From: Candidatus Poribacteria bacterium
Lineage (GTDB): Bacteria; Poribacteria; WGA-4E; WGA-3G
DNA length: 64,000 nucleotides
Direction: 5' to 3'
NCBI GenBank assembly: GCA_022826805.1
Contig: JAJDUH010000008.1
Span: forward strand, 34,032 to 98,031
Position numbers and translations under genes: made by a program. The notes below the pieces were generated by a model. That model had not been told where the DNA came from, ran no database searches, and worked only from the letters and a program-made list of their open reading frames with translations. Below, one piece after another: positions 8,681-63,089 of the stretch (within the stretch, counting starts at the first letter, position 1; each line of letters opens with the position of its first letter).

Positions 8681-8983
8681 AATCAAATCTTTCTTTTATT
8701 TTTACGTTTTTGATTCTACGCCGAATATTTCACCTATTTAGGGGAGTTTCAACAACTCAACTCCCAAACCCTCATTATTGGAAAAATTATAGAAAAAAGT
8801 GTAAATATCGTCAACAAGTTTTTCAGACTGTTCCGGAGCATCCAACGGAATTTCTATGTAAAAAATTTATCCGTTTTTTATAATCTGTGTATGATATTTT
8901 GCAGATTTGCGGTGTCCTAATTCATACTGTTGCAGTAACTATCCAGTCGGATACTCGGGCGAAATAGACCTACCGAAGGAAAA
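8681..8983. promoter_or_regulatory. Divergent promoter region, WD40 gene / chaperone operon
   Basis: The AT-rich gap between divergent genes must hold promoters for both. A TATAAT hexamer at 8879-8884 is a candidate -10 for the rightward chaperone operon, but no good -35 sits 16-18 nt upstream. No CIRCE (TTAGCACTC-N9-GAGTGCTAA) heat-shock operator is visible. Confidence 0.35.
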
Positions 8984-13832: not shown

Positions 13833-13895
13833 TGATCGCCAGACGGCCCGCACTGCGAAGGCCTGTAGACATAGAACTCGTTCCACTAGAGATTG
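13785..13895 (+). repeat. 37-bp direct duplication of the gene's 3' end
   Basis: The 37 bp at 13785-13821, inside the end of the J-like gene, recur exactly at 13859-13895, 74 nt downstream. The second copy lies after the stop and is noncoding. The copies are identical, so the event is recent or the copies are kept alike by conversion. Confidence 0.9.
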
Positions 13896-37522: not shown

Positions 37523-37662
37523 TTTCTGTTTTGCTCAATAGAATACCGTGGCAGACTTCTCTGCTTTTCGTCAGAAGATTCACAACTGCTCACCCCGAAA
37601 AAAACCAAGTACGCAACGGCGCGTGCATTTTGCAAGTCTATATTGCAAAGAAGGGGATTACT

Positions 37663-39347: not shown

Positions 39348-41195
39348 ATGCTTAAAATTTTCAGACCCCATAAACCCATACTCTGGATACTGCTAATCCT
39401 TAGCACGATAACTTTTCCGATTTGCGTACAGGCACAACTCGCCGACTTTGGCCTTGTTGAAAAGGCGCCTGCTGAAAAACTTACCGTAAAAGGATACCTT
39501 TCGGTTGACAAAGTGCAACCGGGAAGTCAATTCCAAATTGCTGTTGTCGTAGACATTGCCGAAGGGTGGCACGTCAACGCTAATCCGGCGGGTGAAGGAC
39601 TTATTGCTACTGAGATCCTTCTCCCTGATACACCGGACTTCACTTTTGGTGAAACTGTATATCCGACAGGCGAAGTGCTACAAATTGATTCAATTGGGGA
39701 AGCCCCTGTCTACCACAATACCATTACTATTGGTATCCCAGTTGACGCAAGTCAAAATGTTCCGATTGCACCGATAGTGCTGGATTTCCAGCTGCAGTAT
39801 CAGGCGTGCAATGACGACCAGTGTCTACTCCCCGAAACCCTTGCTTTTACTGTCCCTGTTGAAATTGTCGGTATAGAAGAGACGATTCAACGAATGAATG
39901 AAGCGGTTTTCGCCAATATTGAGTTTGGAGCACCCCCAAGTTCAGGTGGCGATGAGGGAAACCTTGCGCGTGCGCTCTCTGGAGGACAGGTGTGGCTTGC
40001 TTTTCTACTCGTGTTCGCCGGAGGTATCTTGACGAGTTTGACGCCCTGCGTCTATCCACTTATACCCATTACTGTCTCCATCTTCGGTGCCAATGAATCG
40101 GCGGGACTTTTCAAATCTTTCCTGCTCTCTGTTGTATATGTTCTCGGAATCGTTGTCACCTATTCAATTTTAGGCGTAGCGGTTGCATCAACAGGTGCGG
40201 TTTTCGGTCAGATAATGGCAAATCCGTGGGTTGTCGGATTCATTAGTTTGATCCTGGTTTCTCTTGGACTCTCCATGTTCGGTGTCTTTGAAATTCGGTT
40301 GCCGTATGCGGTGCAGAATCGCCTTAATACCGTTGGAGGCACCGGATTTGCTGGAGGATTTGCCATGGGAACAGTTGCAGGTGTGATCGCTGCACCTTGC
40401 ACGGGACCGGCATTAGCAGTGGTATTAACTTATATCGCAACGACAGGGAGCCTGTTCCTCGGTTTCTGGCTCATGTTCACCTACGCTCTCGGAATGGGGC
40501 TACTCTTTATCGGCATTGGCACTTTCTCAGGTCTACTCTCTGCGCTGCCACGGTCAGGTGGGTGGATGTACGTTTTGGAAAACATCTTTGGAATTGCTAT
40601 TATTACGATGGCACTCTATTTTCTCAAAGATGTATTTCCACCGTTGCTGAACTTCCTTCAAAACTCGCTACCCTTCTTCGCTATCGCTGGTGGCTTAGTG
40701 CTTATAGGACTGTGGTTGGGTAAGTTAACAGAGCGTTTTAGTGGTATTTCTGGAGGGATGCGAATCCAAAAAGCGTGTGGTCTCTTGTTGGCTGTCCTCG
40801 GCACCTATATGCTTGTTGGTGGTATTCAACAACCTGCAGGACCGCACCTGAATTGGGTTTATGACGAAACCGAAGGTCTTGAAATCGCAAAACGCGAGGA
40901 CAAACTCGTAATGCTTGACTTTTACGCGTCTTGGTGTGCGGCTTGCAAGGAACTTGACCACAAGACTTACGCTGACCCGGCAGTGGCTGCAAAACTCGCT
41001 GACTACGTCAACGTCAAACTCGATTTCACCCGCAGTTCTGAGACCACTGAGGCATTGACGGAAAAGTATCAAATTCCAGGATTACCTGTTGTTATCTTCA
41101 TGGACGCCGATGGGACAGTTCTTAAGAGGTTCACAGGCTTTGTTGCGCCAGAAAAGATGCTTAGTGTTCTCAACGAGATTGAGAATGGGATGTAG
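39348..41195 (+). CDS. dsbD: Thiol:disulfide interchange protein DsbD
   Basis: A 615-residue protein with a signal peptide (about 1-30, ending VQAQ) and an N-terminal DsbD-alpha domain with the Cys pair CNDDQC. It then has eight membrane segments with the redox cysteines in SLTPCVYPLIPI and IAAPCTGPALA, and a C-terminal thioredoxin-like domain with WCAAC (in DFYASWCAACKEL). This is the full three-module pathway carrying electrons from cytoplasmic thioredoxin to the periplasm. It lies 18 nt after the PorX-like gene, so it is probably co-transcribed. Length and all six cysteines are normal. Confidence 0.93.
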   Translation: MLKIFRPHKPILWILLILSTITFPICVQAQLADFGLVEKAPAEKLTVKGYLSVDKVQPGSQFQIAVVVDIAEGWHVNANPAGEGLIATEILLPDTPDFTFGETVYPTGEVLQIDSIGEAPVYHNTITIGIPVDASQNVPIAPIVLDFQLQYQACNDDQCLLPETLAFTVPVEIVGIEETIQRMNEAVFANIEFGAPPSSGGDEGNLARALSGGQVWLAFLLVFAGGILTSLTPCVYPLIPITVSIFGANESAGLFKSFLLSVVYVLGIVVTYSILGVAVASTGAVFGQIMANPWVVGFISLILVSLGLSMFGVFEIRLPYAVQNRLNTVGGTGFAGGFAMGTVAGVIAAPCTGPALAVVLTYIATTGSLFLGFWLMFTYALGMGLLFIGIGTFSGLLSALPRSGGWMYVLENIFGIAIITMALYFLKDVFPPLLNFLQNSLPFFAIAGGLVLIGLWLGKLTERFSGISGGMRIQKACGLLLAVLGTYMLVGGIQQPAGPHLNWVYDETEGLEIAKREDKLVMLDFYASWCAACKELDHKTYADPAVAAKLADYVNVKLDFTRSSETTEALTEKYQIPGLPVVIFMDADGTVLKRFTGFVAPEKMLSVLNEIENGM

Positions 41196-42563: not shown

Positions 42564-42571
42564 AAACGAAA

Positions 42572-42643
42572 AGCCGATGAGAGGATTTGAACCTCCGACC
42601 TACTGATTACGAATCAGTTGCTCTTCCCCTGAGCTACACCGGC
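42572..42643 (-). tRNA. tRNA-Thr (CGU anticodon)
   Basis: On the minus strand the sequence folds as a cloverleaf. Acceptor GCCGGTG pairs with CATCGGC, with an expected G-T wobble. The anticodon loop is TTCGTAA on the ACTGA/TCAGT stem, giving anticodon CGU (reads ACG). The T-arm has GGTTCAAAT. CCA is not encoded. Confidence 0.92.
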
Positions 42644-42675
42644 TTATCAAACTATTACAATTGGAAAGAAAGAAA

Positions 42676-42748
42676 TGCCGAGAGGCAGAATCGAACTGCC
42701 GACACATAGATTTTCAGTCTACTGCTCTACCGACTGAGCTATCTCGGC
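42676..42748 (-). tRNA. tRNA-Phe (GAA anticodon)
   Basis: Acceptor GCCGAGA pairs with TCTCGGC and the discriminator is A. The anticodon loop CTGAAAA on GTAGA/TCTAT gives GAA. The D-arm has AGCTCAGTCGGTAGAGC and the T-arm GTTCGATTC. CCA is not encoded. It lies 32 nt upstream of tRNA-Thr on the same strand, so the two are probably one transcript. Confidence 0.94.
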
Positions 42749-42760
42749 ATTGGCTATATA

Positions 42761-44065: not shown

Positions 44066-47000
44066 CTACTTGATAATATTTTCAATGTGAAGCGGTTGAT
44101 CCATCTTCTGGTTTTCGGCTTCTAATTTTTCACGACTCGCGACGACACAGATCGAGGCCTTGTCCCTGTTTTCCTCAAGCACCTGAAGTAGTGCGCGTTT
44201 TACTTCTTTGGGAGTTGCGCGTCGGAGTTGGGCATATCTTCCTTCCACTATTTCACGTGTTTGCCCTGTGAGGTAGTGCGTGAGCGCATCGGTTGCGGCT
44301 TGACTGGGACGGACTGTCTTTTGATAGTCTGATGCTGTCCGGATAATCGCTTTGTCAATATCGGTCTGCGTCCACTCTACCTGTTTGACGTAATCGGCAG
44401 TTTGTTCAAAAACATTGAGCGAACGCGCGATATGGGGACCAAAATACGAACCTTGAGAGAGCATCGCAGCAAACGGGTTATATTCAAAAGTACCAAGGTA
44501 AGCGTTACCTTTAAGTCGGACTTCGGTCATAATGTAATCAAGATCCAAGATGTGTGCGCCAATCGTCAACGGGATAGAATCTGGGTGTGAATAGTGCGGT
44601 GCCGGTATTATATGCGTGCAGTTCGCTATCTGAATGGGAGCTGCCAGTCCTTCACGCGGATATGTGTCAAAAGGTCTAAACCCCGTTGATTTTGGGTTTA
44701 TCGGTTCATCACGCATGTTATCAATCCAGCCAGCAAACTTTCTATTGAGCGTCTCAAAAGCTGCATCGGAACCGGTAAAACTGGCACTCACGCGACTACG
44801 CACTAACAAGAAATCACGAATTTGCCCAATGTAATCGCTGAGCTCTTCATGAGATTCACCAAAATTTTGGAGTAACATCTCACTCCTGCGGAACTGTGTT
44901 AGTCCGTAGACGATTTCTGACAGATATCCGTGTGGCGCAAGTCCGCGGGCAGCACGATGGTTCGTAATATCTAAACACCGATAACCGTGGATATACGTTC
45001 GATATTCTGCTACCGATTGGCTAAGCACATCGTGAAATCGTCCAGTATCCCGTGGATTCACAGCAAAAATCAGATCGTGCAAGACATCCAAGGCATCTCC
45101 CATTTTATCATCAAGCGCTTTGAGTCGAAACTGCATATTCCACACAGGCTGATTAGGGTTAAAGGCGTGGGTGCTAAAGTTCGGAGAACACTCGAGTCCC
45201 CCGGTAGTCGATGCGGTACGGCGTGCCATCTGCTCATAATTCATCTTACCAGCACCGAGTTTGCTGATCGCATCGGTGTATCTGGGTAGATACTGCCAAA
45301 GGTGTTGTGGTAACCCTTGCAAATCAAAATTTAGCACGAGATAGTTCACGCCGTTGGAAAAAACATCATTTAGGAGTAGGGGCCGTCCGCTAACCGCCTC
45401 AACGGTTGTAGGAATATGCAGCGGTTTCTCCGGTAGATCAGAGACCTGCAGTTGTGGTAACTTTGCCAAATCTTCGGGGGCGTTGGGTTCTCCGCTGAGT
45501 CGTTCGAGTTCAGCAGCGTCGGCAGCAATCTCTCTTACCTGTTCATCGGTGAGTTGTGCGCGGATCGCCTTCAAGCGTGCCTCCTCAGCCGCATCAAGAC
45601 GCGCTTGCCTCCCTGGATCAGGGGCATAGACGACCGTCAATCGATGTGGATTATCAAGGAATCTCTCACGAATTAGTTCATTAAAGAGGCGCGGGTTTTG
45701 CTTCCAACGTTGACGGATGGCAGATAGGACTGCGCCCATTTTTAAGAAGAGGGTCGGTTCCTTCTCATATATCCAAGTGTTTACAACACGCTCCATCATC
45801 TGAAACGGGAATCCCGGCGTGATCTCCTGATAGTCGTAAGTGATTTGTTGAAATGCGGCTTCCACCTTCTCCGTGTCAATGTCTGTGTCCGCAATGCGCG
45901 TTAATGTCCTGACAATCAACTCCGTGAAAACATCAACGCGATCGGTTTCACTACCGGTCAAGCCGATGTGAAAAGTATTATGTGGACCCACAATACCGGC
46001 TCCAGCGGGCATCCAATAATTATCATGTATATCAGTGCCAAGTTCAGAATCAACAATCTCCTTGCGGAGCGGTGCCGCCTCGTTTCCGAGGAGAATCAGG
46101 CTTAAAATTCGGCACAAAGCGACATCTTCAGGATCTGTTGCATCTCCGACACACCAACTGAGCATCAGATACGTTTTTTCGGCGAGTGATTCATCCGGAG
46201 CAATCGGATAGACTTCTCTCACAATCCGCGGGGACTCCCATTTGGGCGGATGTGTGACTTCGGGTCGGAGCGGATGCTGAGATCCGTCTATTTCAGTCCT
46301 TGGTAGTGCTGCCAGTTTATCGGTAAAAAATTCGAGATAATCGCTCGTTGGAATATTGCCGTAGAAGAAAAGGTAACAGTTACTCGGATCATAATGGGTT
46401 TGGTAATAAGTTCTGAGTTGTTCGTAGGTTAGATCCGGTATAGCTTGTGGATCCCCAGCACCATTATAAGCATAACAGGTATCAGGCAGAAGCCCCTTGT
46501 GAACAATCAGGTCCAAGTAATCTTCTGGACCGCCACTTTTTACTTCATTATAGACAATCCCATTTATTTTTAAATCTCCTATAGGTTGATTGGGGTCCAC
46601 GGGTTCAAGATGGTGACCTTCACGCTTGAAGGTTTCCTCTGTCAAAAGTGGGTGAAAAACGCTATCAAAGAATACCTCCGCCATATTGAATAAGTCTTTC
46701 CGTACATTGCTCGAAGTGTAGTAAAAAGCATGATCAATGTAGTTCATGGCATTCGTACTGTCAAAGGTTGCGAGGCTCCTCTTCATCATCTCAATGAACA
46801 CCTCTTTTATAGGATAGTTGCGGGATCCTGCCATTACAGAATGTTCAAGGATATGTGTTAATCCTGTATCGTCATTGGGGTTTGGAGTTATCGGACTGAT
46901 TGAGACCCAATTTTTGGTATCGTCTGTATAGAGATGTAAGAGCCGTGCGCCACTGTGTAAATGTGCGAGTTCTATTGCTACTGCTTGCAAGTCGTCAATG

Positions 47001-47098
47001 GGTGTGACGGCTTTCACTTCAAAACCGTGAAGGTGTTGCCCTGGGGACAAGTTAACGGATGGATGCTGAGAATCTGTTCTGCTCTGTTCTGAATTCAT
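44066..47098 (-). CDS. M16C metalloprotease, PreP/Cym1-like
   Basis: A 1010-residue pitrilysin-family protease. The inverted zinc motif is H82-ILE-H86 (HILEH), preceded by DDTGLT, and E185 is in NGIVYNEVKSG. This is the arrangement of the presequence protease group, which uses two large halves joined by a hinge to engulf peptides. Length (about 1000) is normal. In bacteria such enzymes degrade signal peptides and small unfolded peptides; the cellular role here is inferred. ATG 47098 has GGAGG 5 nt upstream; the in-frame TTG 47110 is rejected. It stands in its own transcription unit, with a repeat-filled gap upstream. Confidence 0.92.
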   Translation of the reverse strand: MNSEQSRTDSQHPSVNLSPGQHLHGFEVKAVTPIDDLQAVAIELAHLHSGARLLHLYTDDTKNWVSISPITPNPNDDTGLTHILEHSVMAGSRNYPIKEVFIEMMKRSLATFDSTNAMNYIDHAFYYTSSNVRKDLFNMAEVFFDSVFHPLLTEETFKREGHHLEPVDPNQPIGDLKINGIVYNEVKSGGPEDYLDLIVHKGLLPDTCYAYNGAGDPQAIPDLTYEQLRTYYQTHYDPSNCYLFFYGNIPTSDYLEFFTDKLAALPRTEIDGSQHPLRPEVTHPPKWESPRIVREVYPIAPDESLAEKTYLMLSWCVGDATDPEDVALCRILSLILLGNEAAPLRKEIVDSELGTDIHDNYWMPAGAGIVGPHNTFHIGLTGSETDRVDVFTELIVRTLTRIADTDIDTEKVEAAFQQITYDYQEITPGFPFQMMERVVNTWIYEKEPTLFLKMGAVLSAIRQRWKQNPRLFNELIRERFLDNPHRLTVVYAPDPGRQARLDAAEEARLKAIRAQLTDEQVREIAADAAELERLSGEPNAPEDLAKLPQLQVSDLPEKPLHIPTTVEAVSGRPLLLNDVFSNGVNYLVLNFDLQGLPQHLWQYLPRYTDAISKLGAGKMNYEQMARRTASTTGGLECSPNFSTHAFNPNQPVWNMQFRLKALDDKMGDALDVLHDLIFAVNPRDTGRFHDVLSQSVAEYRTYIHGYRCLDITNHRAARGLAPHGYLSEIVYGLTQFRRSEMLLQNFGESHEELSDYIGQIRDFLLVRSRVSASFTGSDAAFETLNRKFAGWIDNMRDEPINPKSTGFRPFDTYPREGLAAPIQIANCTHIIPAPHYSHPDSIPLTIGAHILDLDYIMTEVRLKGNAYLGTFEYNPFAAMLSQGSYFGPHIARSLNVFEQTADYVKQVEWTQTDIDKAIIRTASDYQKTVRPSQAATDALTHYLTGQTREIVEGRYAQLRRATPKEVKRALLQVLEENRDKASICVVASREKLEAENQKMDQPLHIENIIK

Positions 47099-47110
47099 CT
47101 TGACCTCCAA

Positions 47111-47633
47111 ATTTCTTATATTTCTGAAAAGCGAATGAGACTTCGGTCTGAAAGGAGAACGGTCTTCCGCAGACCGAAGCCGACTAGAAAAATGGTATCT
47201 CAGTCAAGCACATTTCTTGACCGAGAAAACCTTAATTCCGGTCCCTCTTTGCGCGTATTATTATTACAAATGAATCATGAAATAGTTGCACTTTATTTGT
47301 AATCCAAGAAGATGCTATACACTTCTATACACATGTCGCCCCGCTGGGGCTTTTCATTCATATTCAATTAAGTGTTGATTTCAAAGTGCGGCTATAGGAA
47401 AACGCCTATATATTGATTATATAGAGGCGTCTAAGGCTAAAAGGATAGTGAAAATCTGGCATAGGTATGTTACTATCTGCTTTATGTCCGTAAAACGCGT
47501 AGATTGACATCTTTAGCAGATTTTAGAAGGACTTGGACATTGTGACCGGCGAGGTTAGGGGGAAACACCCCAGCAAAAACACCTCGCCTACCGAAGGAGA
47601 GGGTATTAAAGTATGAAAAATCAGAGGAAGCGT
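47111..47633. repeat. Gene-free gap with hairpins, a REP-like element and a family-C repeat
   Basis: 47141-47150 and 47170-47179 are a perfect 10-bp inverted repeat (CTTCGGTCTG). 47326-47353 holds GCCCC-GCT-GGGGC with flanking ACATGT, a relative of the REP at 63121. 47402-47430 is an ACGCCT...AGGCGT hairpin that, read on the minus strand after the TAXI gene, ends in TTTT and may terminate it. 47545-47592 is GGCGAGGTT...ACACCTCGCC with the family-C core. Confidence 0.6.
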
Positions 47634-48659
47634 TTATTTGTTCCAAATGCCGATTTCGCGATAGAAACGGATAGCCCCCGGATGGAAAGCCGTGCCTGTG
47701 TCCTTAACGACATTTTTCGGATTGATGGCTTTCCCGGCACCGTGTCGTTTAACGACTTCCGCCCGGTGTGTATACAAGGTCTTTGTGAACTGGTAGACCA
47801 TATCTTCATCTACGTTCTCGGCGGTGATTAGGTGCATCGCGCCTACATTCATGCTGGGGAATGGCTCCGTCTGTCCTTTGTAGGTATTGGCGGGGATAGT
47901 TATTGCGTTAAAGAAGGGATAGTCTGCGAAGAGGGACTGTTTCGCTGTTTCGTCAAATGGAATGAAGAAGATGTTTTGAGAGGTACTGGCTTGGGTAGCT
48001 GCGGGGGTCGGAACAGCCCCACCGATGAATGCAGCGGCAGCCGAGCCGTCCGCTAACAGATCCACTGCCCCGATGTAAGTGCTGTTGATGGGTGTGAAAT
48101 CTTCGTAGGTAATGCCGTGTGCTGCTAATATAGGTCTAAGGAAATACTCAAACCCCGCACCTGCGGGTCCAACGACAATTCGTTTTCCAGCGAAGTCTTG
48201 AATTGTGCGGATATCCGACGATTGTGGCGTAAGAAAGAGACCGACATTAGGAGCAAGCGTCATGACGCTACGGATGGCATGTTCAGTTTCCCATGCGCCT
48301 TCGCCGCGCACTGCGAAATAGGAGATGGCGGCGTTGGCAAGTGCGAATTCCAATTCACCACCCACGATGCGGCGGATGTTCTCTTGCGTGCCTTTGGTGG
48401 CTTCGGCTGTGACTTCCCAACCTGTTTCGGGGGCGTTACCAGCGACGACCTCGGCGATTGCGGAACCAACGACGAAAAATGCCCCACCCGCAGGAGCTGT
48501 ACCGACGCTGATGTACCGGCGTTTTGAGGAACTATCGTTTACTAACTCGGTAGATGTATCGTCTCCCTGGCTTTGGGTTGTATCACGTTTTGAGGCATTA
48601 TCGCATCCGAAGGCAAATATAACACAGATAATTGATAGATAGAACAGGATTGATTTCAT
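47634..48659 (-). CDS. TAXI-family TRAP solute-binding lipoprotein
   Basis: A 341-residue periplasmic solute-binding protein of the TAXI group. The lipobox is at FAFGC (Cys about residue 19), followed by a Ser/Thr/Asp-rich linker. The fold is seen in RYISVGTAPAGGAFFVVGSAIAEVV, EATKGTQENIRRIVGGELEFALANA, GKRIVVGPAGAGFE and the C-terminal AVVKRHGAGKAI. TAXI proteins deliver substrates such as glutamate or dicarboxylates to a fused TRAP permease, which is not nearby. ATG 48659 has GGAG 6 nt upstream; TTG 48671 is rejected. The ligand is unknown. Confidence 0.9.
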   Translation of the reverse strand: MKSILFYLSIICVIFAFGCDNASKRDTTQSQGDDTSTELVNDSSSKRRYISVGTAPAGGAFFVVGSAIAEVVAGNAPETGWEVTAEATKGTQENIRRIVGGELEFALANAAISYFAVRGEGAWETEHAIRSVMTLAPNVGLFLTPQSSDIRTIQDFAGKRIVVGPAGAGFEYFLRPILAAHGITYEDFTPINSTYIGAVDLLADGSAAAAFIGGAVPTPAATQASTSQNIFFIPFDETAKQSLFADYPFFNAITIPANTYKGQTEPFPSMNVGAMHLITAENVDEDMVYQFTKTLYTHRAEVVKRHGAGKAINPKNVVKDTGTAFHPGAIRFYREIGIWNK

Positions 48660-48709
48660 GAGTTTCTCCAATAAACTATTTCGCGTTTACAAAGCCCTCC
48701 CACTTTATA

Positions 48710-49972
48710 TTAACGGAGGGGCATCTCAGGTGGAAATGGACACATCTCTGCCATGGCGGGGAAGATGTGCGTTACGTCTTTTCTAAACACATCCCCACTC
48801 AAAATATCAACGATACCGCCTTGATGTTCCGGGTACTGCGACAGAAACCGAGCAAAACTAAATTCCTTTGTGTAAAAAGCGTAGACGAGTTTCCGAAACG
48901 CCTCCATTCCCTTCACAAACTCAGGTCCAAAACTTCCGAGTTGTTGTTCGGAAAAATCATCTTTTTCAAAGGCTTCAATGATTGTATCCGCTGCCATCTC
49001 ACCGGATTTGAGTGCGAGAAAGAGGCCTGTTGAGTAGACAGGATCCAAGAATCCGAACGCATCCCCTACTAACACCCAATGATTGCCTGCGATACGACTG
49101 GCGCGGTAGGAAAAGTCTTTAGTGCTTTGAATGGGAAAAAGCTGCTTCGCACCTTTAAGTCGTTGCTGTAGTGGTGTGCATTTTGAAAGTTCTTCCGTGA
49201 AAATCTGCTGAGTATCGAGTCTACCGTTGGCATCTCTTCGATCCTGAAGGAGATAGTCGAGTTCACCAACGACACCGATACTCGTGCGATCATAGGGCAG
49301 CGGGATTGACCAGAACCATGAATCCTTCGCTTCGGTATGTAAGATGAGCGTTGCCCCCTCGTCAATGCCGTCGTCTCTGTGTCCGCCTTCATAATGCGTG
49401 AAGAGCGATGCCATTTTGAGATTCGGTTCTGTCGTATTTAGGTTCAATTGCTTTCCGATAAGCGAGCGCTGTCCGGTAGAATCGACGATGACGGTTGCGT
49501 TGAGCGTTTCACGAGAGCGATTCGCGGCTTGTACCACGACCGCAGTAGCTGTGTCTCCTTCAAACAGCACCTCTCGCACGCTGCCCCCGTGCACCACCTC
49601 TACCCCTTTCTCCTTGGCGTTGTCTAAGAGCATCTCGTCAAACTCGCTCCGCAACACTTGCCACGTAACGGCACTCTCATGCGGATTGGTTTGAAAGAAG
49701 TAGAAGGGGCTGGAGGCTTTGCCGGTGCGCGAATAGAACTGGACGCTGTACTTTTGCGGAAAGTGGCTTGCCCGTAGTTTTTCGAGCATGCCGAGTCTTT
49801 TGAAAGTCCAGTAGGTAGCTGGGATTAGCGACTCGCCGATTTTGAATTTCGGTTCGGCTTCCCGCTCAAGCAGCAACACACGATGTCCTTGTTCAGCAAC
49901 GAGTGTTGCAACGGTGCTGCCAGCGGGTCCCCCGCCGATAACGATGAGGTCGTAATTGTGGTGTGTGTTCAT
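48710..49972 (-). CDS. Flavin-dependent halogenase-like monooxygenase
   Basis: A 420-residue FAD enzyme. The dinucleotide motif is GGGPAG (13-18), GESLIP is at 46-51, and W219-F-W-S-I-P224 matches the WxWxIP signature used to tell flavin halogenases from ordinary monooxygenases. The second FAD motif LVGDAFGFLDPVYSTG follows. The catalytic Lys of tryptophan halogenases is not obvious. The likely activity is halogenation of an electron-rich or carrier-bound substrate, as in CmlS-like enzymes; reductase-like (geranylgeranyl reductase) activity is the alternative. It is 51 nt from the TAXI gene on the same strand, so an operon is possible. No Shine-Dalgarno is clear. Confidence 0.72.
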   Translation of the reverse strand: MNTHHNYDLIVIGGGPAGSTVATLVAEQGHRVLLLEREAEPKFKIGESLIPATYWTFKRLGMLEKLRASHFPQKYSVQFYSRTGKASSPFYFFQTNPHESAVTWQVLRSEFDEMLLDNAKEKGVEVVHGGSVREVLFEGDTATAVVVQAANRSRETLNATVIVDSTGQRSLIGKQLNLNTTEPNLKMASLFTHYEGGHRDDGIDEGATLILHTEAKDSWFWSIPLPYDRTSIGVVGELDYLLQDRRDANGRLDTQQIFTEELSKCTPLQQRLKGAKQLFPIQSTKDFSYRASRIAGNHWVLVGDAFGFLDPVYSTGLFLALKSGEMAADTIIEAFEKDDFSEQQLGSFGPEFVKGMEAFRKLVYAFYTKEFSFARFLSQYPEHQGGIVDILSGDVFRKDVTHIFPAMAEMCPFPPEMPLR

Positions 49973-50036
49973 CTAATTATTATTTTCAAACCTATTCCGA
50001 TTGAGTTCCTATAGTGAGTGGCAAATTGATAGAGAT

Positions 50037-53000
50037 TTAATCGATTACAGAAGTCACACAACGGAAACCAATAGTGAGAGACGTAAATGTTGGGAGTTTG
50101 GAGTAGCGTTTAGCGGCACGCATGAACTGTCCTCCATTGCCCCAGTTCCCACCACGCAATACGCGAGGAGTTTTAACATTTATGAAATTATTTATGATTT
50201 CATTAGTGCTGTCAGCACCTACAATAGGATTCGGACGCGGATAATTCTCATAGAAATCCAAACGGTATTCATCCAGACACCACTCCCATGCATTCATGTT
50301 ATACCTATAACCGGACATTTGATAACTTCCCATGCGTGATGCTTTCTCCCATTCCGCTTCTGTTGGTAGACGCTTACCCACCCATTGCGCGTATGCCATC
50401 GCTGCATACCAACTTACATAAGCGACAGGATGATAGTCTTCTCCATTCGGATAAGTGTTCTCATACCAGCGTTTCAAGTAGCTGCCATCATGGTATTCTC
50501 TAGAAATAAGGTTTTTGCTCCATTGCGGGTTTGCATTGAGGAATTTTTTATATTCTGCATTCGTCACCTCATGCGTATCTATATAGAATGAATCAATGTG
50601 GACACTACGCATGGATTTTTTGTCATTCCAGGCCGCGTTGTCGTTGTGTTTTATCTGAAATGTACCTTCAAAAATCGGGGTCATACCCACAGGCGCACCG
50701 TGTACATGCTTTACTTTTTTATTTAGTTTGGAGCGAGCACGCTTAAGGTAATCACGTGTTTTTGCACAATTCTGATCAATGTTTATTGCCTTCCGAAATA
50801 GATTTATAGCCGTTTGATACTCGCTCATCCAATAGTAAGCGTTTCCAAGATTAGTATGTACGGTTTTATCATTGGGGTCTATGTCAGTAGCCTTCTGATA
50901 GCAAGTTGCGGCCTTAGCATAATCATCTATCCAATAATAGGCCCGCCCAAGATTAGTCCATACTTCCTTATCATTTGGAGCAATATCGCTTGCTTTAAGA
51001 AGTGGGTTTATAGCCTTCGTATATTCGCTATCCTCTATGTAGGCGAAACCTCGTTTGCAATACGTTTGCTTTATATCTTCCAAAAGTGCCAATGCTAGTT
51101 GACAGTTAGGTTCAAGTCTTAAAGTTTTGTTCGCAGAATTTTCAGATTCTATTAAGTTACCCTGTCCAAAGTACGCACGGCCCAGTCCATAATGTGCATC
51201 TGCATAAATAGGGTCTATGTCTATTGCTTTCTTGAACTTGGCAGCTGCTGTCTCATATTGCCCCATGTTCGAGTAATCATAACCTGCTTTATAGTATTCC
51301 TGTTTTCGCTTATTGCCTTCAAAGCGAGAAGAATTGAGATGACTCCGGAGATAGCAAAGACTCACAGCGATTGCGTCGGCTTCATGGTCTGTTTTGATTG
51401 CCTTTCTAAGGTTAGAGCGTTTTTGGACCCCTTGCTCGACTTGTTCCTTGTTTGCCTGCTTATCACCGGTAGCAGCATATTTAACCTCTTGTGGTGTATA
51501 GCGGCGACATTCAATTCCACGTTGATCGGCGATAGTGCTTATGGCTGCTACACAACCCGCGACATAGAGGAACCAGTCTTCTTTTGCTTTCCTTGTTGCA
51601 ACTTCAAGTTTCTCAACTGCAATCGCATCAGGTCGATACAGATCTACTAAACGGTTGATCGTATGCTTAATCTTTTCGAGTTTGTCTTCTTTGTTGCCTA
51701 TAGGGTGCTCAGTATTGTGATCCAAAACAGAATATCCACCAGAGACTTTTTGCGTAACTGACCAACCCACATTTGTTTCATGAGCACCAATGTTCCCAGG
51801 ATCAACGCCGATCACAGTCATACCAGACCCAAGCAGTTTCTCGGGGAGGGGTTCATAACCAGGAGGTTCTTCAGACCCTGTTGTCTTCATTTCCTTGGGA
51901 TGGGGTGGGATAGAAGTGTTTTCAAGCGTCTTTACAGATTCAAGTAGGCTTTTAGGAATATATTTTAGAAATGGAGAGCGTCCACGTTTATGTTTTGTGT
52001 CGACCTCATAAGACGATAAACATAACCAATTCTTTGCTCGGGTCATCGCTACGTAAAGCAGACGAAGTTCTTCACTCCAATCCTCTTCTTTAGAATTGTA
52101 GTGGGGTAACAATCCAGAGCACACTCCAGCAACAAAAACATTTGGGAATTCCAAACCTTTTGATTTGTGAATTGTCATGATAGATACCTTATTTGTAGGT
52201 ATATCTGATAAGTCTTCAACTACATGAAGTGGAATTCCTGAATTCTTAAACGCCTCTTCAAAAATAGGTGATTGCGACTTCGTACTGCGGCAGAGTATGG
52301 TAAAGTCTCTGGGTTCCCGATCACCTTTGATAGAACGAGCGATAAAATTAGCGATGGTGTTAGCCTCTACATTAGCATCCTCACAATGGAGATTTATTAC
52401 TTTCGGGTCCGTGTCTTTAGATTTTCCCGTGAATAGATCTTTCTCGCGATGATCCGGATTAAATTCCGCTAAAGCACGAGAGGCCTCCACTATCCTTCGT
52501 GTTGAACGATAATTTTGACCAAGTGTGATTGGTTTTTTACCAATAGAATAATCATTCTCAAAGTTTAATATATTTTGGATATCAGCTCCTCGCCATCCAT
52601 AAATGCTCTGGTCGTCATCACCCACAACACGCAGATTTGGATGCTCTCCGGCAAGTGCTCTGATAATTTCGTATTGGATAGGGTCTGTGTCCTGGAATTC
52701 ATCAACGAAGATAAGTTCAAATTTCTCTTGCCATTTGGTTCTAACTTCAGGTGCATCTCTGAGGAGGGCGTTGGTAAAAAGCTGAATTTTTGTAAAAATA
52801 TCGCTACTATCCTCTAAAATATCTTTGTCTTTCTCCTCTAAAATCTGTTTGTATTTTTTGTAGACCTCGACACAAATTCGTGGGACTTCTTGATCACTAA
52901 TTCCCGCGGGGGAAATGTCCTGCTTTTCCCATTGTTTGATAGTATTAAGAATCTCTTTGTCATCAACAAACTTATGATGTTGGAGGCGGTCAATCTGATA

Positions 53001-53378
53001 GCGCATCTTATAGACCCGCGTTAATTCCTCAGCAGTGAAGTCTCGTTCATTTTTTTCTATGATAAGTTTTCCAGGGTGGTTGTTCCAAACGTGTCCACAG
53101 AAACTATGGAATGTAGAAATCCAAACATTATCAACTATATCCTGCTCCACAACAAAATCACCAACTCTATTTTTTAACTCATCTTTAGCTTTGTTCGTGA
53201 AGGTAAATGCAGCGATTTTACTGGGATCTACTTCAAGATTTCCTATGGCATAAGCAATAGAGCAAGCAATCGTCCGCGTTTTACCGGAGCCAGGACCAGC
53301 GATAATTAGAAGGGGACCATATTTATGTGTAACAGCTTTCCGTTGTGCAGGGTTTAGTTCATTTAATAGTTTCGACAT
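50037..53378 (-). CDS. UvrD/Rep helicase-RuvC nuclease-TPR-SUMF1 domain fusion
   Basis: A single 1113-residue ORF holds four modules. Residues 1-480 are a superfamily 1A helicase: AGPGSGKT (27-34), VDEFQDTD (225-232), GDDDQSIYGWRG (253-264), QNYRST (288-293), TIHKSKGLEF (402-411) and VAMTRAK (443-449). Residues 521-676 are RuvC-like: D526 in GVDPG, E589 in AVEKLE, H665 and D668 in DHEADAIAVSL, the full D-E-H-D catalytic set of Thermus-type RuvC. Residues 691-879 are about five TPRs. Residues 894-1109 are a SUMF1/FGE-sulfatase fold (YIDTHEVTNAEYKKFL, KRLPTEAEWEKAS, RVLRGGNWGN, IGFRCV), but the cysteines of true FGE are absent. ATG 53378 is preferred because MSKLLNELNPAQRKAV is the standard UvrD start; the TTG at 53426 is weaker. 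Likely DNA repair, recombination or defence. Confidence 0.9.
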   Translation of the reverse strand: MSKLLNELNPAQRKAVTHKYGPLLIIAGPGSGKTRTIACSIAYAIGNLEVDPSKIAAFTFTNKAKDELKNRVGDFVVEQDIVDNVWISTFHSFCGHVWNNHPGKLIIEKNERDFTAEELTRVYKMRYQIDRLQHHKFVDDKEILNTIKQWEKQDISPAGISDQEVPRICVEVYKKYKQILEEKDKDILEDSSDIFTKIQLFTNALLRDAPEVRTKWQEKFELIFVDEFQDTDPIQYEIIRALAGEHPNLRVVGDDDQSIYGWRGADIQNILNFENDYSIGKKPITLGQNYRSTRRIVEASRALAEFNPDHREKDLFTGKSKDTDPKVINLHCEDANVEANTIANFIARSIKGDREPRDFTILCRSTKSQSPIFEEAFKNSGIPLHVVEDLSDIPTNKVSIMTIHKSKGLEFPNVFVAGVCSGLLPHYNSKEEDWSEELRLLYVAMTRAKNWLCLSSYEVDTKHKRGRSPFLKYIPKSLLESVKTLENTSIPPHPKEMKTTGSEEPPGYEPLPEKLLGSGMTVIGVDPGNIGAHETNVGWSVTQKVSGGYSVLDHNTEHPIGNKEDKLEKIKHTINRLVDLYRPDAIAVEKLEVATRKAKEDWFLYVAGCVAAISTIADQRGIECRRYTPQEVKYAATGDKQANKEQVEQGVQKRSNLRKAIKTDHEADAIAVSLCYLRSHLNSSRFEGNKRKQEYYKAGYDYSNMGQYETAAAKFKKAIDIDPIYADAHYGLGRAYFGQGNLIESENSANKTLRLEPNCQLALALLEDIKQTYCKRGFAYIEDSEYTKAINPLLKASDIAPNDKEVWTNLGRAYYWIDDYAKAATCYQKATDIDPNDKTVHTNLGNAYYWMSEYQTAINLFRKAINIDQNCAKTRDYLKRARSKLNKKVKHVHGAPVGMTPIFEGTFQIKHNDNAAWNDKKSMRSVHIDSFYIDTHEVTNAEYKKFLNANPQWSKNLISREYHDGSYLKRWYENTYPNGEDYHPVAYVSWYAAMAYAQWVGKRLPTEAEWEKASRMGSYQMSGYRYNMNAWEWCLDEYRLDFYENYPRPNPIVGADSTNEIINNFINVKTPRVLRGGNWGNGGQFMRAAKRYSKLPTFTSLTIGFRCVTSVID

Positions 53379-53422
53379 CTGAGTTCCGTTCGGGTTTATT
53401 TGGAAGCAAGGCAGATCGCTAT

Positions 53423-53623
53423 TCAATCCGCAGCTTCTTCATCTTTTGATTTTGCTACTTTCGGCTTCTTTGAGAGTGGATCTACGAATTTGTACTTTCC
53501 AGATTTCCGGTATTCTTCCTCTAATGCTTGATAGTGTGCGATCAGTTTGTCCACATCGTGGTCGAACCGAACTAATATTTCTCGTTGAATTCTGTGAATT
53601 TCATCAAGTTCATAGTCTGCCAT
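53423..53623 (-). CDS. Small charged protein upstream of the helicase fusion
   Basis: A 66-residue helical protein, beginning MADYELDEIHRIQREILVRF and ending in a basic then acidic tail (SKKPKVAKSKDEEAAD). No family was recognised; its size and position are those of an antitoxin-like or accessory protein, but no toxin is present. AGGAG lies 12 nt before ATG 53623; ATG 53632 is only 3 nt away, so 53623 is preferred but not certain. It ends 44 nt before the helicase ATG. If the helicase starts at TTG 53426 instead, the two would overlap by 4 nt (TTGA). Confidence 0.55.
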   Translation of the reverse strand: MADYELDEIHRIQREILVRFDHDVDKLIAHYQALEEEYRKSGKYKFVDPLSKKPKVAKSKDEEAAD

Positions 53624-53744
53624 TTTAATCATCAACTCCTAAACAATTATAACCCTCCGCAAAACGGTATGTCAAGGTAAAGAGAAAGAGCAACAAACCA
53701 TTCAGTTTTGTCTATCAGAAAAGTCGCGAAATGTAGAACTAAGA

Positions 53745-53771
53745 CAAATTGTGCTTTCGTAGCACAATTTG
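53745..53771. repeat. Perfect 11-bp palindromic repeat
   Basis: CAAATTGTGCT-TTCGT-AGCACAATTTG lies between hisA and the helicase operon, within a block (53722-53786) that starts AAGTCGCGA and ends CGCTCCTACA. The same flanks occur at 22829-22866, so this is a dispersed element. It could also serve as a weak terminator for the small-gene/helicase region, but no T-run follows. Confidence 0.5.
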
Positions 53772-53802
53772 GAAATCGCTCCTACAAAAGAACAGAACCG
53801 TT

Positions 53803-54510
53803 TTAACGCGCTGCAGCGATGGCATCGCTGAGCGTGAGGTCCCCTGTATACAAAGCACGTCCGATAATCGCGCCGCTGGCACCTATCCCCTTCAGTGCAG
53901 CTACGTCAGCAAGCGATGTGACCCCTCCTGAACCGATTACATTCGCAGACACGGCTTTGACGATATCGGCAGTGGCATCAACATTGGGTCCCTTGAGCAT
54001 GCCGTCGCTCTTGATGTCGGTGTAGATAAGCGTCTGTACTTCTGCCATTTCTTGTGCAAATTCAACGGCAGATTTTTGAGACACCTCCAGCCACCCATCA
54101 GTGGCGACCATTCCGTCTTTTGCATCAATACCGACAGCAACGCGCCCTCCATACTTGGCGCATGCCTGCTTCACGAAATCGGGTTGTTTGAGGGCAACTG
54201 TGCCTAAAATGGCGCGATCCACTCCCAACGCTAAAACAGTATCCAACTGTTCCAGATTGCGGATACCGCCACCAAGCTGGACTGGAATTTCAAGCGCGGC
54301 GATCATCTCGCCAACAATGTGAAGGTTCGCCGATTCGCCTTGAAACGCACCATCAAGATCCACGAGGTGGAGATATTCTGCGCCTTCCGCCTGCCACCGT
54401 AGTGCCATTTCCACTGGTGCGTCGGAGAAGACGGTCTCCTGTGTCGCAATGCCTTGAACCAGATTCACACACTTTCCGCCGCGAAGATCGATTGCGGGTA
54501 GTATTTGCAT
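53803..54510 (-). CDS. hisA: Phosphoribosylformimino-5-aminoimidazole carboxamide ribotide isomerase
   Basis: A 235-residue (beta/alpha)8 barrel of the histidine pathway. PAIDLRGG (with D8), LHLVDLDGAF, PVQLGGGIRN, YTDIKSDGMLKGPN (the second catalytic Asp) and GSGGVTSLADV are all present. It isomerises ProFAR to PRFAR. It stands alone; hisF/hisH are not adjacent. AAGGAAA lies about 7 nt before the ATG. The nearest gene, a sugar permease, is 51 nt upstream on the same strand, so co-transcription is possible but functionally unrelated. Confidence 0.96.
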   Translation of the reverse strand: MQILPAIDLRGGKCVNLVQGIATQETVFSDAPVEMALRWQAEGAEYLHLVDLDGAFQGESANLHIVGEMIAALEIPVQLGGGIRNLEQLDTVLALGVDRAILGTVALKQPDFVKQACAKYGGRVAVGIDAKDGMVATDGWLEVSQKSAVEFAQEMAEVQTLIYTDIKSDGMLKGPNVDATADIVKAVSANVIGSGGVTSLADVAALKGIGASGAIIGRALYTGDLTLSDAIAAAR

Positions 54511-54561
54511 TTTTAATTTTCCTTGCGATTCGTTGAGGTAGGTTGGAGGCCTGAAAGTCCC

Positions 54562-55461
54562 TTACTCATCTCGGAAGATACCGAGTAATTTCAATTGTAC
54601 AATTGAGATTACAGCGATAATGAAAAAGAGTACCCATCCGATCGTTGCTGCATAGCCGAGACGCATGAACTGAAACCCGTTTTTGTAGAGATACATGACG
54701 ATAGTTGAACCGGCATCCGCAGGTTCGCCGCCATTTGTCAAAATATAGGGGAGATCGAAGAGTTGGAGTGAGCCTATCATTGATACAACAAAAACAAAAG
54801 CGATTACAGGTCGCAAGGAGGGGAGTGTGATGTGTAGAAACGCCTGCCACCAATTCGCGCCGTCAACTGCTGCTGCTTCATATAACTCCTGTCGGATACC
54901 TTGCAGACCAGCTAAAAAATAGATCATATTGAATCCTGCCCACTGCCACACGCCGGTTAGGATAACTGCTGGCATCACGTAATTTTCCTCGTTTAACCAA
55001 CCAATTTCTTTACCAAAGAGAACAAATTCCTGGTTTACTAAGCCTGCTCGCTGGTCATAGACGAGGTTAAAGATGATGGCGACGAAAACACCAGCGACTA
55101 ATACCGGAGCAAAGAAAGCGAGCCTCAGCACATTCTTTCCTCTGACAAATTTGGAATTGAGTAGAATCGCTAACAGCAATGCAATCGGCAATTGGAGGGT
55201 CAACGTGCCCGCAGCAAAATAAGCGGTGTTTCGGAGGGACTTCCAGAAGATTGGGTCGCGGAACAGGTCCGTGAAGTTCCCTATTCCGACAAATATTCGA
55301 CTTTGAAACCCGCGCATCTCATATAGACTCATAACGAGCGACGAAATGAGGGGATACCCCATAAATACAACGAAGAGCAGGTAGAAGGGGGCGATAAAAA
55401 GATAGGGAGCGATTTTCTGTTGTTGATTCCAGAAGCGGTATGTCGTTCGGTTTGTTCTCAT
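54562..55461 (-). CDS. Sugar ABC transporter permease, MalF/UgpA type
   Basis: A 299-residue inner-membrane permease of about six TM segments (APYLFIAPFYLLFVVFMGYPL, YFAAGTLTLQLPIALLLAILL, FAPVLVAGVFVAIIFNLV, and others). It has the cytoplasmic EAA loop ELYEAAAVDGANWWQAFLHITLPSL that docks the ATPase. It pairs with the solute-binding gene 138 nt upstream. A second permease (MalG type) and the ATPase are not in the window; hisA follows instead. The system therefore looks incomplete here, and the sugar is unknown. Confidence 0.9.
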   Translation of the reverse strand: MRTNRTTYRFWNQQQKIAPYLFIAPFYLLFVVFMGYPLISSLVMSLYEMRGFQSRIFVGIGNFTDLFRDPIFWKSLRNTAYFAAGTLTLQLPIALLLAILLNSKFVRGKNVLRLAFFAPVLVAGVFVAIIFNLVYDQRAGLVNQEFVLFGKEIGWLNEENYVMPAVILTGVWQWAGFNMIYFLAGLQGIRQELYEAAAVDGANWWQAFLHITLPSLRPVIAFVFVVSMIGSLQLFDLPYILTNGGEPADAGSTIVMYLYKNGFQFMRLGYAATIGWVLFFIIAVISIVQLKLLGIFRDE

Positions 55462-55599
55462 ATTTTTTAAATTAGCGCAAGCGAGTTGTCAGGAACACTG
55501 TAGTGTGCAGGAGCATCTTTCAAATCTGCATTGCTGCCGTTGTTGCAGTACTACAGACCTTAGCCGAGGCATTTCATCAGCCGATGCTGCTTGAGAAAA

Positions 55600-56958
55600 T
55601 TATAACTCCCCCCAGCGTCCTAAGTCTTTTGCGATGAGTGCCCGGACTTTCTTGGCAAGGTCTGTTAGGGCTTCTCTGGGGGTCTGCTTTTCTGTTACTG
55701 CGGCGAAAATAGCATCATTCAAGAGGTCAGCCCCTTCCGACCAATAGGGATTTTGATAACGCGGTGGCATATCAGGCGCGAGTTGGATAAACAAATCTCC
55801 AAGTGGCTGCCCTCCCAAATAGGCGTCAGGCTCTTTAAAGATTGGTGCGTCCCATGCGGATTTGAGGGGCGGAATAATGCGTGTCGTCTCATACCGGTTC
55901 ACAAGTCCAGCTCGGTCAAAATATGTGAACTTGAGGAGCTCCCAGGCGCGGTCAGGGTTTGTGCACTGCTTTGTCATTCCAATCATTGTGCCGCCGCGAG
56001 TAGTGGTGCGCCTGCCGCCTGGATGCCATGCTGGCATGGGTATCGCCTTCCATTTGCCGGACATCTGTGGCACCTGACTTTTGAGAATACCGACGTACCA
56101 ATCTGGCGAGAGAATAGAGAGGATCTTGCCGTCTTGCATGGCGGCAAAATTGCTTGGGTCGCCGTGCCATGTGCCGTATACCGGGGTGGCGATTTTATGT
56201 TCATTGAACAGCGACGTAAAAAACTCCAAAGTCTCAATTGCGAGTTCACTGTCGATAATAACGTTGCCTTCCTCGTCAAAAAAACCGCCGCCCTGTTGGA
56301 GGAGTAGGCTGAAGTAGTCGCTCTCAGTCCGGCGATCTAATACCATGGCGTACTGATCAATCTCACCATCGCCATCAAGATCGCGGGTCGCTTTTTTTCC
56401 GGCAACGATGAAATCATCCCATGTTTCGACTTCCGTCATCTCAACGCCTGCAGCTTTAAAGAGATCATCACGATAGAGAAGTACAACCGGATGTAAATCG
56501 TGTGGGATTCCGAAAATCTGTCCGCGATAGGACCAAGGAGTGAATCGACTGACGACTAACTTCTCCATCCAGCCCTCGCTTTCTAAACGCGGGCGGAGAT
56601 CGACAAAGCCGACCTCGTCGATTGCGCCTTTGAGGAACCTGCCGATGGATGTAATCTCGACTTCAACGAGATCTGGGGCACCGAAATTGGACAGCATCGC
56701 AGCGAGAAGTTTGTCATGCATTGTGTTACCGAAGTTGATAAGCTGCACGTTGACGCCCGGGTTCTGTGCCTCAAAAATCGGCACACGTGCTTGGTACTCC
56801 TCATAGTGGGTATTGGCAAAGATCCAAAATTCGAGACTCTCACCCTCTTCCTCAGAACGACCGAAAATAAAAAAGGTCGATATGACGAAAAGAACGAGCA
56901 TCACCATGGGTCCCTTACCGAGCGGAAACCCTTCAGCGTCAATAGGAAGGCGAAACAT
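55600..56958 (-). CDS. Sugar ABC transporter substrate-binding protein
   Basis: A 452-residue periplasmic binding protein of the sugar-type (family 1). A hydrophobic N-terminal segment (about 19-36, MVMLVLFVISTFFIFG) works as a signal anchor. The body has ESLEFWIFANTHYEEYQARVPIFEAQNP, then DLVEVEITSIGRFL, YAMVLDRRTESDYFSLLLQQGG, and RAWELLKFTYFD. ATG 56958 has GGAG 6 nt upstream; the in-frame TTG 56970 is rejected. It precedes the permease gene in the same direction. Ligand unknown. Confidence 0.88.
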   Translation of the reverse strand: MFRLPIDAEGFPLGKGPMVMLVLFVISTFFIFGRSEEEGESLEFWIFANTHYEEYQARVPIFEAQNPGVNVQLINFGNTMHDKLLAAMLSNFGAPDLVEVEITSIGRFLKGAIDEVGFVDLRPRLESEGWMEKLVVSRFTPWSYRGQIFGIPHDLHPVVLLYRDDLFKAAGVEMTEVETWDDFIVAGKKATRDLDGDGEIDQYAMVLDRRTESDYFSLLLQQGGGFFDEEGNVIIDSELAIETLEFFTSLFNEHKIATPVYGTWHGDPSNFAAMQDGKILSILSPDWYVGILKSQVPQMSGKWKAIPMPAWHPGGRRTTTRGGTMIGMTKQCTNPDRAWELLKFTYFDRAGLVNRYETTRIIPPLKSAWDAPIFKEPDAYLGGQPLGDLFIQLAPDMPPRYQNPYWSEGADLLNDAIFAAVTEKQTPREALTDLAKKVRALIAKDLGRWGEL

Positions 56959-62537: not shown

Positions 62538-63089
62538 TTAAATCGAATCCGGAGCATCGGGATCAAAAACGTACCTCTCATCATAATCCACATTAAAACG
62601 CTTTAAAAAAGCAAGGTATTCCTCTTGGAACGTTCTGCGTTCATGATGCTTTTCCTGCCTTCTAATGTAGGCAGCCACCTCATCAACATGAGACTGTGAG
62701 TAGGAAAATGCCCCAAATCCCACTTGCCATTCAAATTTCCCGGCAACCCATTGCTTGTTGTTGATAAATTTTGAAGAATTTGCCTTGATACCTCCCACAA
62801 GTTTTGAGACTGCAATGTCTGGAGCCATGCCCACAAGAATATGAATATGATCCGGCATCGAATTGATTTGAATCATAGTCTGTTTTTTCTTAGTGATGAT
62901 ACCGGTAATATATTTGTGAAGTTCAGCTTTGTGGCGTTTTGGAATGAGAGATTGTCTGTTCTTAACAGCAAACACGATATGAACGTAGAGCTGGGTGTAG
63001 TATTTGCCACAGTTTCTCCTCGTAGAAATTTTTATACATATCGCCCTTACAGGGCTTAGGTTTTTGTTAAATGCGACAACTATAAACAT
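62538..63089 (-). CDS. Y1 (IS200-like/REP-associated tyrosine) transposase, TnpA-type
   Basis: A HUH transposase: YTQLYVHIVFAVKNRQSLI near the N terminus, the HUH motif in MPDHIHILVG, and the single catalytic Tyr in VDEVAAYIRRQEKHH. It nicks single-stranded DNA at hairpins. The 183-residue frame begins inside a REP copy, which is unnatural. A better start, GTG at 63008-63010 with AGGAG 5 nt upstream, gives VANTTPSST in the next frame. One extra T near codon 4 would make it VANTYTQLYVHIVF, the usual start for the family. A 1-nt deletion near the start therefore probably exists. REP doublets flank it in opposite orientation. It may be inactive, or frame-shifted in translation. Confidence 0.8.
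   Translation of the reverse strand: MFIVVAFNKNLSPVRAICIKISTRRNCGKYYTQLYVHIVFAVKNRQSLIPKRHKAELHKYITGIITKKKQTMIQINSMPDHIHILVGMAPDIAVSKLVGGIKANSSKFINNKQWVAGKFEWQVGFGAFSYSQSHVDEVAAYIRRQEKHHERRTFQEEYLAFLKRFNVDYDERYVFDPDAPDSI

Follow-up and report, generated by a model that had tools for sequence, protein, structure and literature searches.

Effectors that combine a helicase with a nuclease are already known. Among described systems, UvrD and TPR genes lie beside Cas12a2 without being fused to RuvC (PMC10910872), and a putative sensing or neutralising role in conflict systems has been described for FGE domains (PMC7159879, PMC10907252); these two reports neither describe the enzyme presented here nor mention Poribacteria, a phylum known for its symbioses with sponges (PMC5649159). 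Here, we analyse a stretch of 64,000 nucleotides of a Candidatus Poribacteria genome (assembly GCA_022826805.1, contig JAJDUH010000008.1; hereafter the window), in which one gene joins a UvrD-type helicase, a RuvC nuclease, a TPR region and a SUMF1/FGE fold. The initial annotation, made from the letters alone, knew of no described architecture of this kind; likewise, we found no UvrD-RuvC chain in the open-licence PubMed Central listings. We propose, with our confidence evenly divided, that its product is a DNA nuclease directed against invaders, which would be triggered through its tail and restrained by a 66-residue protein encoded upstream.

One gene encodes the four-part chain

An open reading frame exists on the minus strand alone, from 50037 to 53426 (1129 residues when counted from a TTG), and the plus strand of 50037-53378 carries many stops. 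Met17 of this frame, encoded by the ATG at 53378, is at least 90% conserved among 37 aligned relatives, and this near-invariance supports the 1113-residue start that had been chosen initially. Residue numbers refer to the 1129-residue frame; subtracting 16 gives the numbering of the 1113-residue protein. All five Pfam families of the protein score above their cut-offs on this frame: UvrD-helicase (4.1e-71, residues 24-293), UvrD_C (8.2e-37, its end, 409-473), RuvC (1.4e-19, 538-691), TPR_1 (2.4e-28, four stretches) and FGE-sulfatase (1.6e-34, from residue 915). Profile searches thus recover both RuvC and SUMF1/FGE as well as the TPRs, and the single uninterrupted frame with four parts, as first described, stands.

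The comparison set consisted of the window protein and the 120 best-scoring clusters among 7862 database hits. Helicase and RuvC occur together in 121/121 of these sequences (phmmer), several of them on contigs longer than 4 Mb, and one named Poribacteria metagenome-assembled genome matches the fusion over residues 1-1128 (best segment 48% identity). Since the relatives share the helicase-RuvC order and this match spans the full length, the helicase-RuvC-TPR-FGE fusion is real and no misassembly. The draft state of the window's genome (80 contigs, 5.1 Mb, 94% complete) speaks for an artefact that fused separate genes, an explanation already refuted by the relatives and deserving practically no credence. 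This match comes from a scan of genome contigs with six exact peptide patterns, which found one locus. The enzyme parts are under constraint, with a dN/dS ratio of the gene of ∼0.25 (Nei-Gojobori) and catalytic residues that do not vary among the 121 sequences. The AlphaFold model, for which 37 of the 121 sequences served as input, is weak as a whole (mean pLDDT 70.8, pTM 0.35) and Foldseek with the whole chain gives low TM scores, 0.1-0.2 on the query; we relied on matches of single domains alone.

A motor without subdomain 2B is joined to a RuvC nuclease

The SF1A motor motifs from Walker A to VI are present and their residues are conserved across the 121 sequences, with Lys49 of Walker A in all 120 sequences reaching it and the Asp-Glu pair of motif II in 121/121. 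The helicase had been called intact, and this holds for the motor but not for the regulatory subdomain 2B: the spacing from FEEAF to motif V is 24 residues in the fusion versus 186 in the PcrA of the same genome, which indicates that 2B is absent and that the four-subdomain plan is incomplete. A slightly shorter stretch counted at this site has a median of 21 and a maximum of 27 residues in the 121 sequences. The best helicase profile is PcrA, at 354 bits far under its equivalog cut-off (911 bits), and PcrA itself is encoded by a separate gene in the same genome. According to PMC13238157, the Rep monomer is activated as a helicase by deletion of 2B.

The second part belongs to the RuvC nuclease superfamily by Pfam match, catalytic tetrad and fold. 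The tetrad first listed as D526, E589, H665 and D668 corresponds to D542, E605, H681 and D684, each invariant in 121/121 sequences, and the RuvC part of the AlphaFold model matches the solved RuvC 7xhj with a TM score of 0.85 on the target and 2.7 Å. The lysines K649 and K660 are also invariant in 121/121; they are equivalent to K111 and K122 of Thermus thermophilus RuvC, which lie near the exchange-point phosphate (PMC3834835). The wedge aromatic (Phe73/Phe69) is absent from 121/121 sequences (Glu in 66, a gap in 50, Asp in 4, Lys in 1), the Phe73-equivalent position being our own assignment from the alignment. Because D. radiodurans RuvC likewise has no Phe at the wedge position, this absence is not decisive against junction cleavage. 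The genome's separate canonical RuvC has, by eye, a Tyr there. The fusion scores 76 bits against the RuvC equivalog profile, for which the cut-off is 163.

Tails are exchanged between similar heads

The TPR region is modelled as helix pairs with pLDDT mostly ∼90, and the FGE tail follows it. Active formylglycine-generating enzymes carry a closely spaced catalytic cysteine pair. The predicted tail lacks such a pair: its last 110 residues hold only two cysteines, 73 residues apart, and because these are so few and so widely spaced the tail is probably a binding fold.

We sorted the tails by phmmer and end-letter patterns, a crude classification that gives FGE tails in 29/121 sequences and basic-helix tails in 50/121 by phmmer, and 18 further sequences with Lys/Arg-rich ends by pattern. 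We dropped 24 of the 121 rows, whose ends escaped classification or may be truncated; on the tree of the remaining 97 heads, the tail class changed at least 16 times. This value lies between the minimum possible (2) and the shuffled mean (40), and tails are therefore clustered as well as exchanged. In one pair, an FGE protein (P0075) and a basic-helix protein (P0119) have heads 96.9% identical over 674 residues. Moreover, head and tail identities are uncorrelated (rho 0.06) in 25 of the 29 FGE rows, the same rows in which tail entropy was computed. As judged from these comparisons, tails are exchanged between near-identical heads.

The fusion is present or absent at one site and its alleles are divergent

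The fusion occurs in 14/84 genomes of the phylum: 12/38 in the window's genus, 2/18 in a sister genus and 0/28 elsewhere. All 84 genomes match through their ordinary helicase; the fusion was counted at E ≤1e-145, with the top eight candidates scored in each of these partly fragmented drafts. In 13/13 loci (the window and 12 others), the neighbours tabulated downstream of the fusion are the same two, the FAD oxidoreductase gene directly next to it and then the NMT1-like gene. L003 and L045, being one record, count once. The oxidoreductase was found in 20/20 fusion-free genomes searched, out of 70. The site could be read in 17 of these 20 (all but G038, G039 and G047), and 16 of the 17 hold no trace of the helicase-RuvC head. 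In G074, roughly the first 22-50 residues of the head remain, joined to TPR sequence without the core, and the G054 allele (L051) is broken by an in-frame stop and seen as two open reading frames (ORFs). Empty sites, remnant and broken allele make this a one-site presence/absence locus with visible losses. Two tRNA genes, tRNA-Thr(cgt) and tRNA-Phe(gaa), lie beside dnaN ∼7 kb from the site (window 42571-42749, minus strand). Some genomes probably carry two fusion copies, because different alleles (P0020 and P0070; P0021 and P0042) have longest contigs of equal size (13,921 and 4,430,440 bases, respectively).

Between the window and the sister genome G077, 12 proteins match; 11 of them are 82-99% identical and the fusion is 57% identical (best local alignment). 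In DNA, the oxidoreductase gene is 94% identical and the sequence from HisA onward 92%, with 86% for the small-ORF region and 69-74% for those parts of the fusion that align. Synonymous divergence (dS, Nei-Gojobori) is 0.78 in the helicase, 0.69 in RuvC, 1.04 in the TPR region and saturated in the FGE tail, versus 0.15-0.54 in nine neighbours. The raised dS suggests a meeting of old alleles and not just rapid change of the protein; positive selection is not shown, dS being up as well as dN. Over 55 pairs from 11 genomes (the trees omit G051, G054 and G055, which contig ends truncate), RuvC identity hardly follows that of the oxidoreductase (rho 0.11), nor helicase identity that of the TPR region (0.19). 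The G041 and G073 alleles are 82% identical in RuvC and 64% in the helicase, and G064 and G048 take different positions in the head tree and in the neighbour tree.

A small ORF precedes the fusion

Directly upstream of the fusion, a small ORF is found without a stop in 11/11 loci having a 5' end, 44 nt from the fusion ATG in 6/11 and 14-141 nt in the others. It has no antitoxin family match. In relatives it starts 1 nt after a gene of 162-163 residues that probably encodes a PIN toxin, the firmer form of this call being our own reading. Across the 11 fusion loci this PIN gene is full length in four, reduced or frame-split in three and undetected in four, and there is no PIN match at the window's own locus. 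At L047, the small ORF is preceded by a short ORF that we read as BrnA-like, and the corresponding site of L088 holds an ORF with a BrnA antitoxin match at 1.8e-4, under the cut-off. At L081 and L042, it follows a gene of 246-253 residues, presumably Uma2-like, which has no Pfam match. Two to three tandem copies of the small ORF stand at one site in L042 (G077; 12838-13035 and 13746-13892) and L091 (5219-6159). The small ORF has 183 database relatives; of the 120 listed, four bear an organism name, in each case Poribacteria, and at least 14 listed contigs equal fusion-cluster contigs in size, a rough lower bound.

Table 1. Coordinates of the fusion gene, its parts and its neighbours in the window
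Feature	Position	Strand	Residues or length	Basis or remark
Fusion gene	50037..53378	-	1113 aa	From conserved ATG 53378; stop at 50037
SF1A (UvrD/PcrA-type) helicase region	51927..53378	-	17-500	Pfam UvrD-helicase, UvrD_C
Site of missing subdomain 2B	52176..52247	-	394-417	Spacing compared with own PcrA
RuvC nuclease domain	51342..51824	-	535-695	Pfam; fold match to 7xhj
TPR region	50712..51311	-	706-905	Pfam; ∼5 repeats
SUMF1/FGE (C-type-lectin-like) tail	50040..50711	-	906-1129	Pfam; PDB matches to FGE
Most variable stretch of FGE tail	50082..50126	-	1101-1115	Mean entropy 2.29 in 25 FGE rows
Small ORF, proposed restraining partner	53423..53623	-	66 aa	44 nt upstream of fusion ATG
Sigma-70 consensus promoter	53646..53675	-	12/12, spacer 18	22 nt upstream of small ORF; consensus match only
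FAD oxidoreductase gene	48710..49972	-		Neighbour annotation; marks fixed site downstream
NMT1-like substrate-binding protein gene	47634..48671	-		Neighbour annotation; next downstream

A proposed effector and its rivals

In the mechanism that we propose, the small ORF and the fusion would be transcribed and produced together, as suggested by their order, their spacing and the promoter match in the window. At rest, the enzyme would be kept off by the small protein or by the tail. The TPR region and the tail, whose exchange and variability are described above, would then bind an invader molecule. Without the inhibitory 2B, the helicase might unwind DNA as a monomer, by analogy with 2B-deleted Rep, and RuvC, with its tetrad and lysines in place and probably dimeric, would cut DNA that is branched or unwound. 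We infer restraint, trigger and target, and build them onto the observed architecture and its conservation, the single site, the divergent alleles, the exchanged tails and the small partner ORF. The initial annotation had offered either a recombination-repair machine or a DNA-targeting effector in a defence island. The effector seems to fit better, because of the one-site presence/absence, the allele divergence, the tail exchange and the toxin-antitoxin-like setting; 'defence island' is not literally right, because the genes further out are housekeeping.

Several observations weigh against a defence effector, and some of them suit a DNA repair or recombination enzyme in which the helicase processes intermediates, RuvC resolves them and the TPR/FGE part docks. 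The invariant tetrad and the two conserved exchange-point lysines, whose role is known from PMC3834835, would also suit a junction-specific repair enzyme, and the housekeeping neighbourhood points the same way. Helicase and RuvC identities are moderately correlated (rho 0.55, compared with 0.80 between the two neighbouring genes), which means that exchange has its limits. The head tree keeps the pairs G000+G077 and G041+G034, as does the neighbour tree, and its shared and shifted pairs together imply partly vertical descent. The 25 of 52 PADLOC matches considered are mainly generic UvrD helicases (GajB; one DRT-linked). Nevertheless, a repair role appears unlikely, if worth keeping in mind, for an enzyme that is absent from 70/84 genomes of the phylum, coexists with a separate canonical RuvC and PcrA, has its wedge aromatic replaced in 121/121 sequences and shows a strength of allele divergence and tail exchange unusual for repair genes. 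The exchangeable, divergent alleles at one site would also fit a between-strain recognition or competition locus of the allorecognition type, not directed against phage, in which the tail distinguishes kin; nothing ties the fusion to cell contact, secretion and surface signals not having been searched for, and we consider this very improbable.

Other difficulties concern the upstream partner of the proposed effector. Only 4/11 fusion loci (the window, L044, L045 and L050) have a promoter that matches at 11 or 12 positions no more than 45 nt away; the match of L041 is 98 nt away, and the other six have none above 9 within 150 nt. The L046 copy of the 162-163-residue gene matches Pfam PIN at 1.3e-4, just under the cut-off, and the L049 copy has no NCBIfam match. 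The small ORF is also present at 9/17 fusion-free sites (at one with a stop) and may therefore belong to the PIN gene. This persistence and the 1-nt distance between the two are what an ordinary toxin-antitoxin pair would predict, the fusion then being unrelated cargo that uses its promoter and safe site. However, PIN is reduced, split or absent in 7/11 fusion loci, in all of which the small ORF is free of stops, and the 44-nt spacing to the fusion ATG recurs in 6/11; we regard the cargo explanation as rather unlikely.

Other explanations for tail variation and mobility were examined and rejected. A diversity-generating retroelement (DGR) as the source of tail variation was rejected because no reverse transcriptase was found in the genome (no RVT_1 match in 5.1 Mb of draft sequence, 94% complete). 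Elsewhere in the genome, 15 stretches match the tail DNA in part (16 when its match to itself is counted), the best with 79% over 136 bases. Carriage by plasmids or phages found no support, 80% query coverage at one place being reached in 0/2147 plasmid and 0/169 phage matching records. In the 80 viral loci listed, of 121, no match extends past residue 540, a position that precedes the catalytic residues of RuvC. An RNA-guided RuvC was dismissed as well, with no Rfam match in 47000-56000 and the next downstream gene 64 nt away. The flanks hold only short two-copy repeats, with no inverted pair of ≥20 nt that could mark transposon ends.

Elsewhere in the window, two adjacent AcrB-type efflux pump genes (26092-29322 and 29448-32675, minus strand) are 82% identical and form a tandem duplication; an 824-residue protein (6212-8686, minus strand) consists nearly entirely of WD40 repeats, in at least 13 stretches; and an IS200-like (Y1) transposase gene (62538-63089, minus strand) lies in the AT-richest part. 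A gene with a PglZ domain and a response-regulator match (37531-39330, plus strand) adjoins a DsbD-like gene (39348-41195); since it carries this match and is probably PorX-like, we did not count it as a defence gene.

Comparison with known systems

Taken one step further, the fusion could be a one-gene immune receptor-effector, with a 2B-less SF1A helicase and RuvC, a small antitoxin-like restraint and exchangeable TPR/FGE sensors, its alleles being recombined at one locus without a DGR. We put this forward tentatively, as possible but somewhat doubtful. Its allele diversification would resemble that of allorecognition or NLR genes. If true, it would unite the motor, nuclease and sensor of a helicase-nuclease defence system in a single chain, and would represent a natural counterpart of the helicase that 2B deletion activates in vitro, a use of RuvC beyond junction resolution and CRISPR, and a bacterial locus that diversifies its sensor via allele exchange rather than DGR mutagenesis.

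The locus recalls PIN toxin-antitoxin pairs, presumably VapBC-like, in the adjacency of a probable PIN gene and the small ORF in relatives; it differs in its toxin-first order, in a small ORF outside the antitoxin families matched and in the window's lack of a PIN match. With PcrA, UvrD and Rep the fusion shares all SF1A motifs, whereas it has no 2B and is joined to RuvC. With RuvC resolvases it shares the fold, the tetrad and the two exchange-point lysines, whereas it lacks the wedge aromatic and is joined to a helicase. Like the FGE/C-type-lectin sensors and DGR targets (PMC7159879, PMC10907252), it has a C-terminal FGE with a variable stretch near the end; unlike them, it stands in a genome without reverse transcriptase and carries no STAND, vWA or MoxR. 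The Cas12a2 system brings together UvrD, TPR and a RuvC-bearing nuclease as separate genes with CRISPR, in contrast to a single chain with no guide RNA family found by Rfam in the interval given above. Gabija, finally, is similar in that a UvrD-like helicase and a nuclease make up the proposed effector, and GajB profiles match the helicase down to 7.5e-83, a match generic for UvrD; no GajA-type gene was seen among the ten neighbouring genes scanned. However, GajA and GajB are two chains, whereas the fusion is one chain and its nuclease is RuvC.

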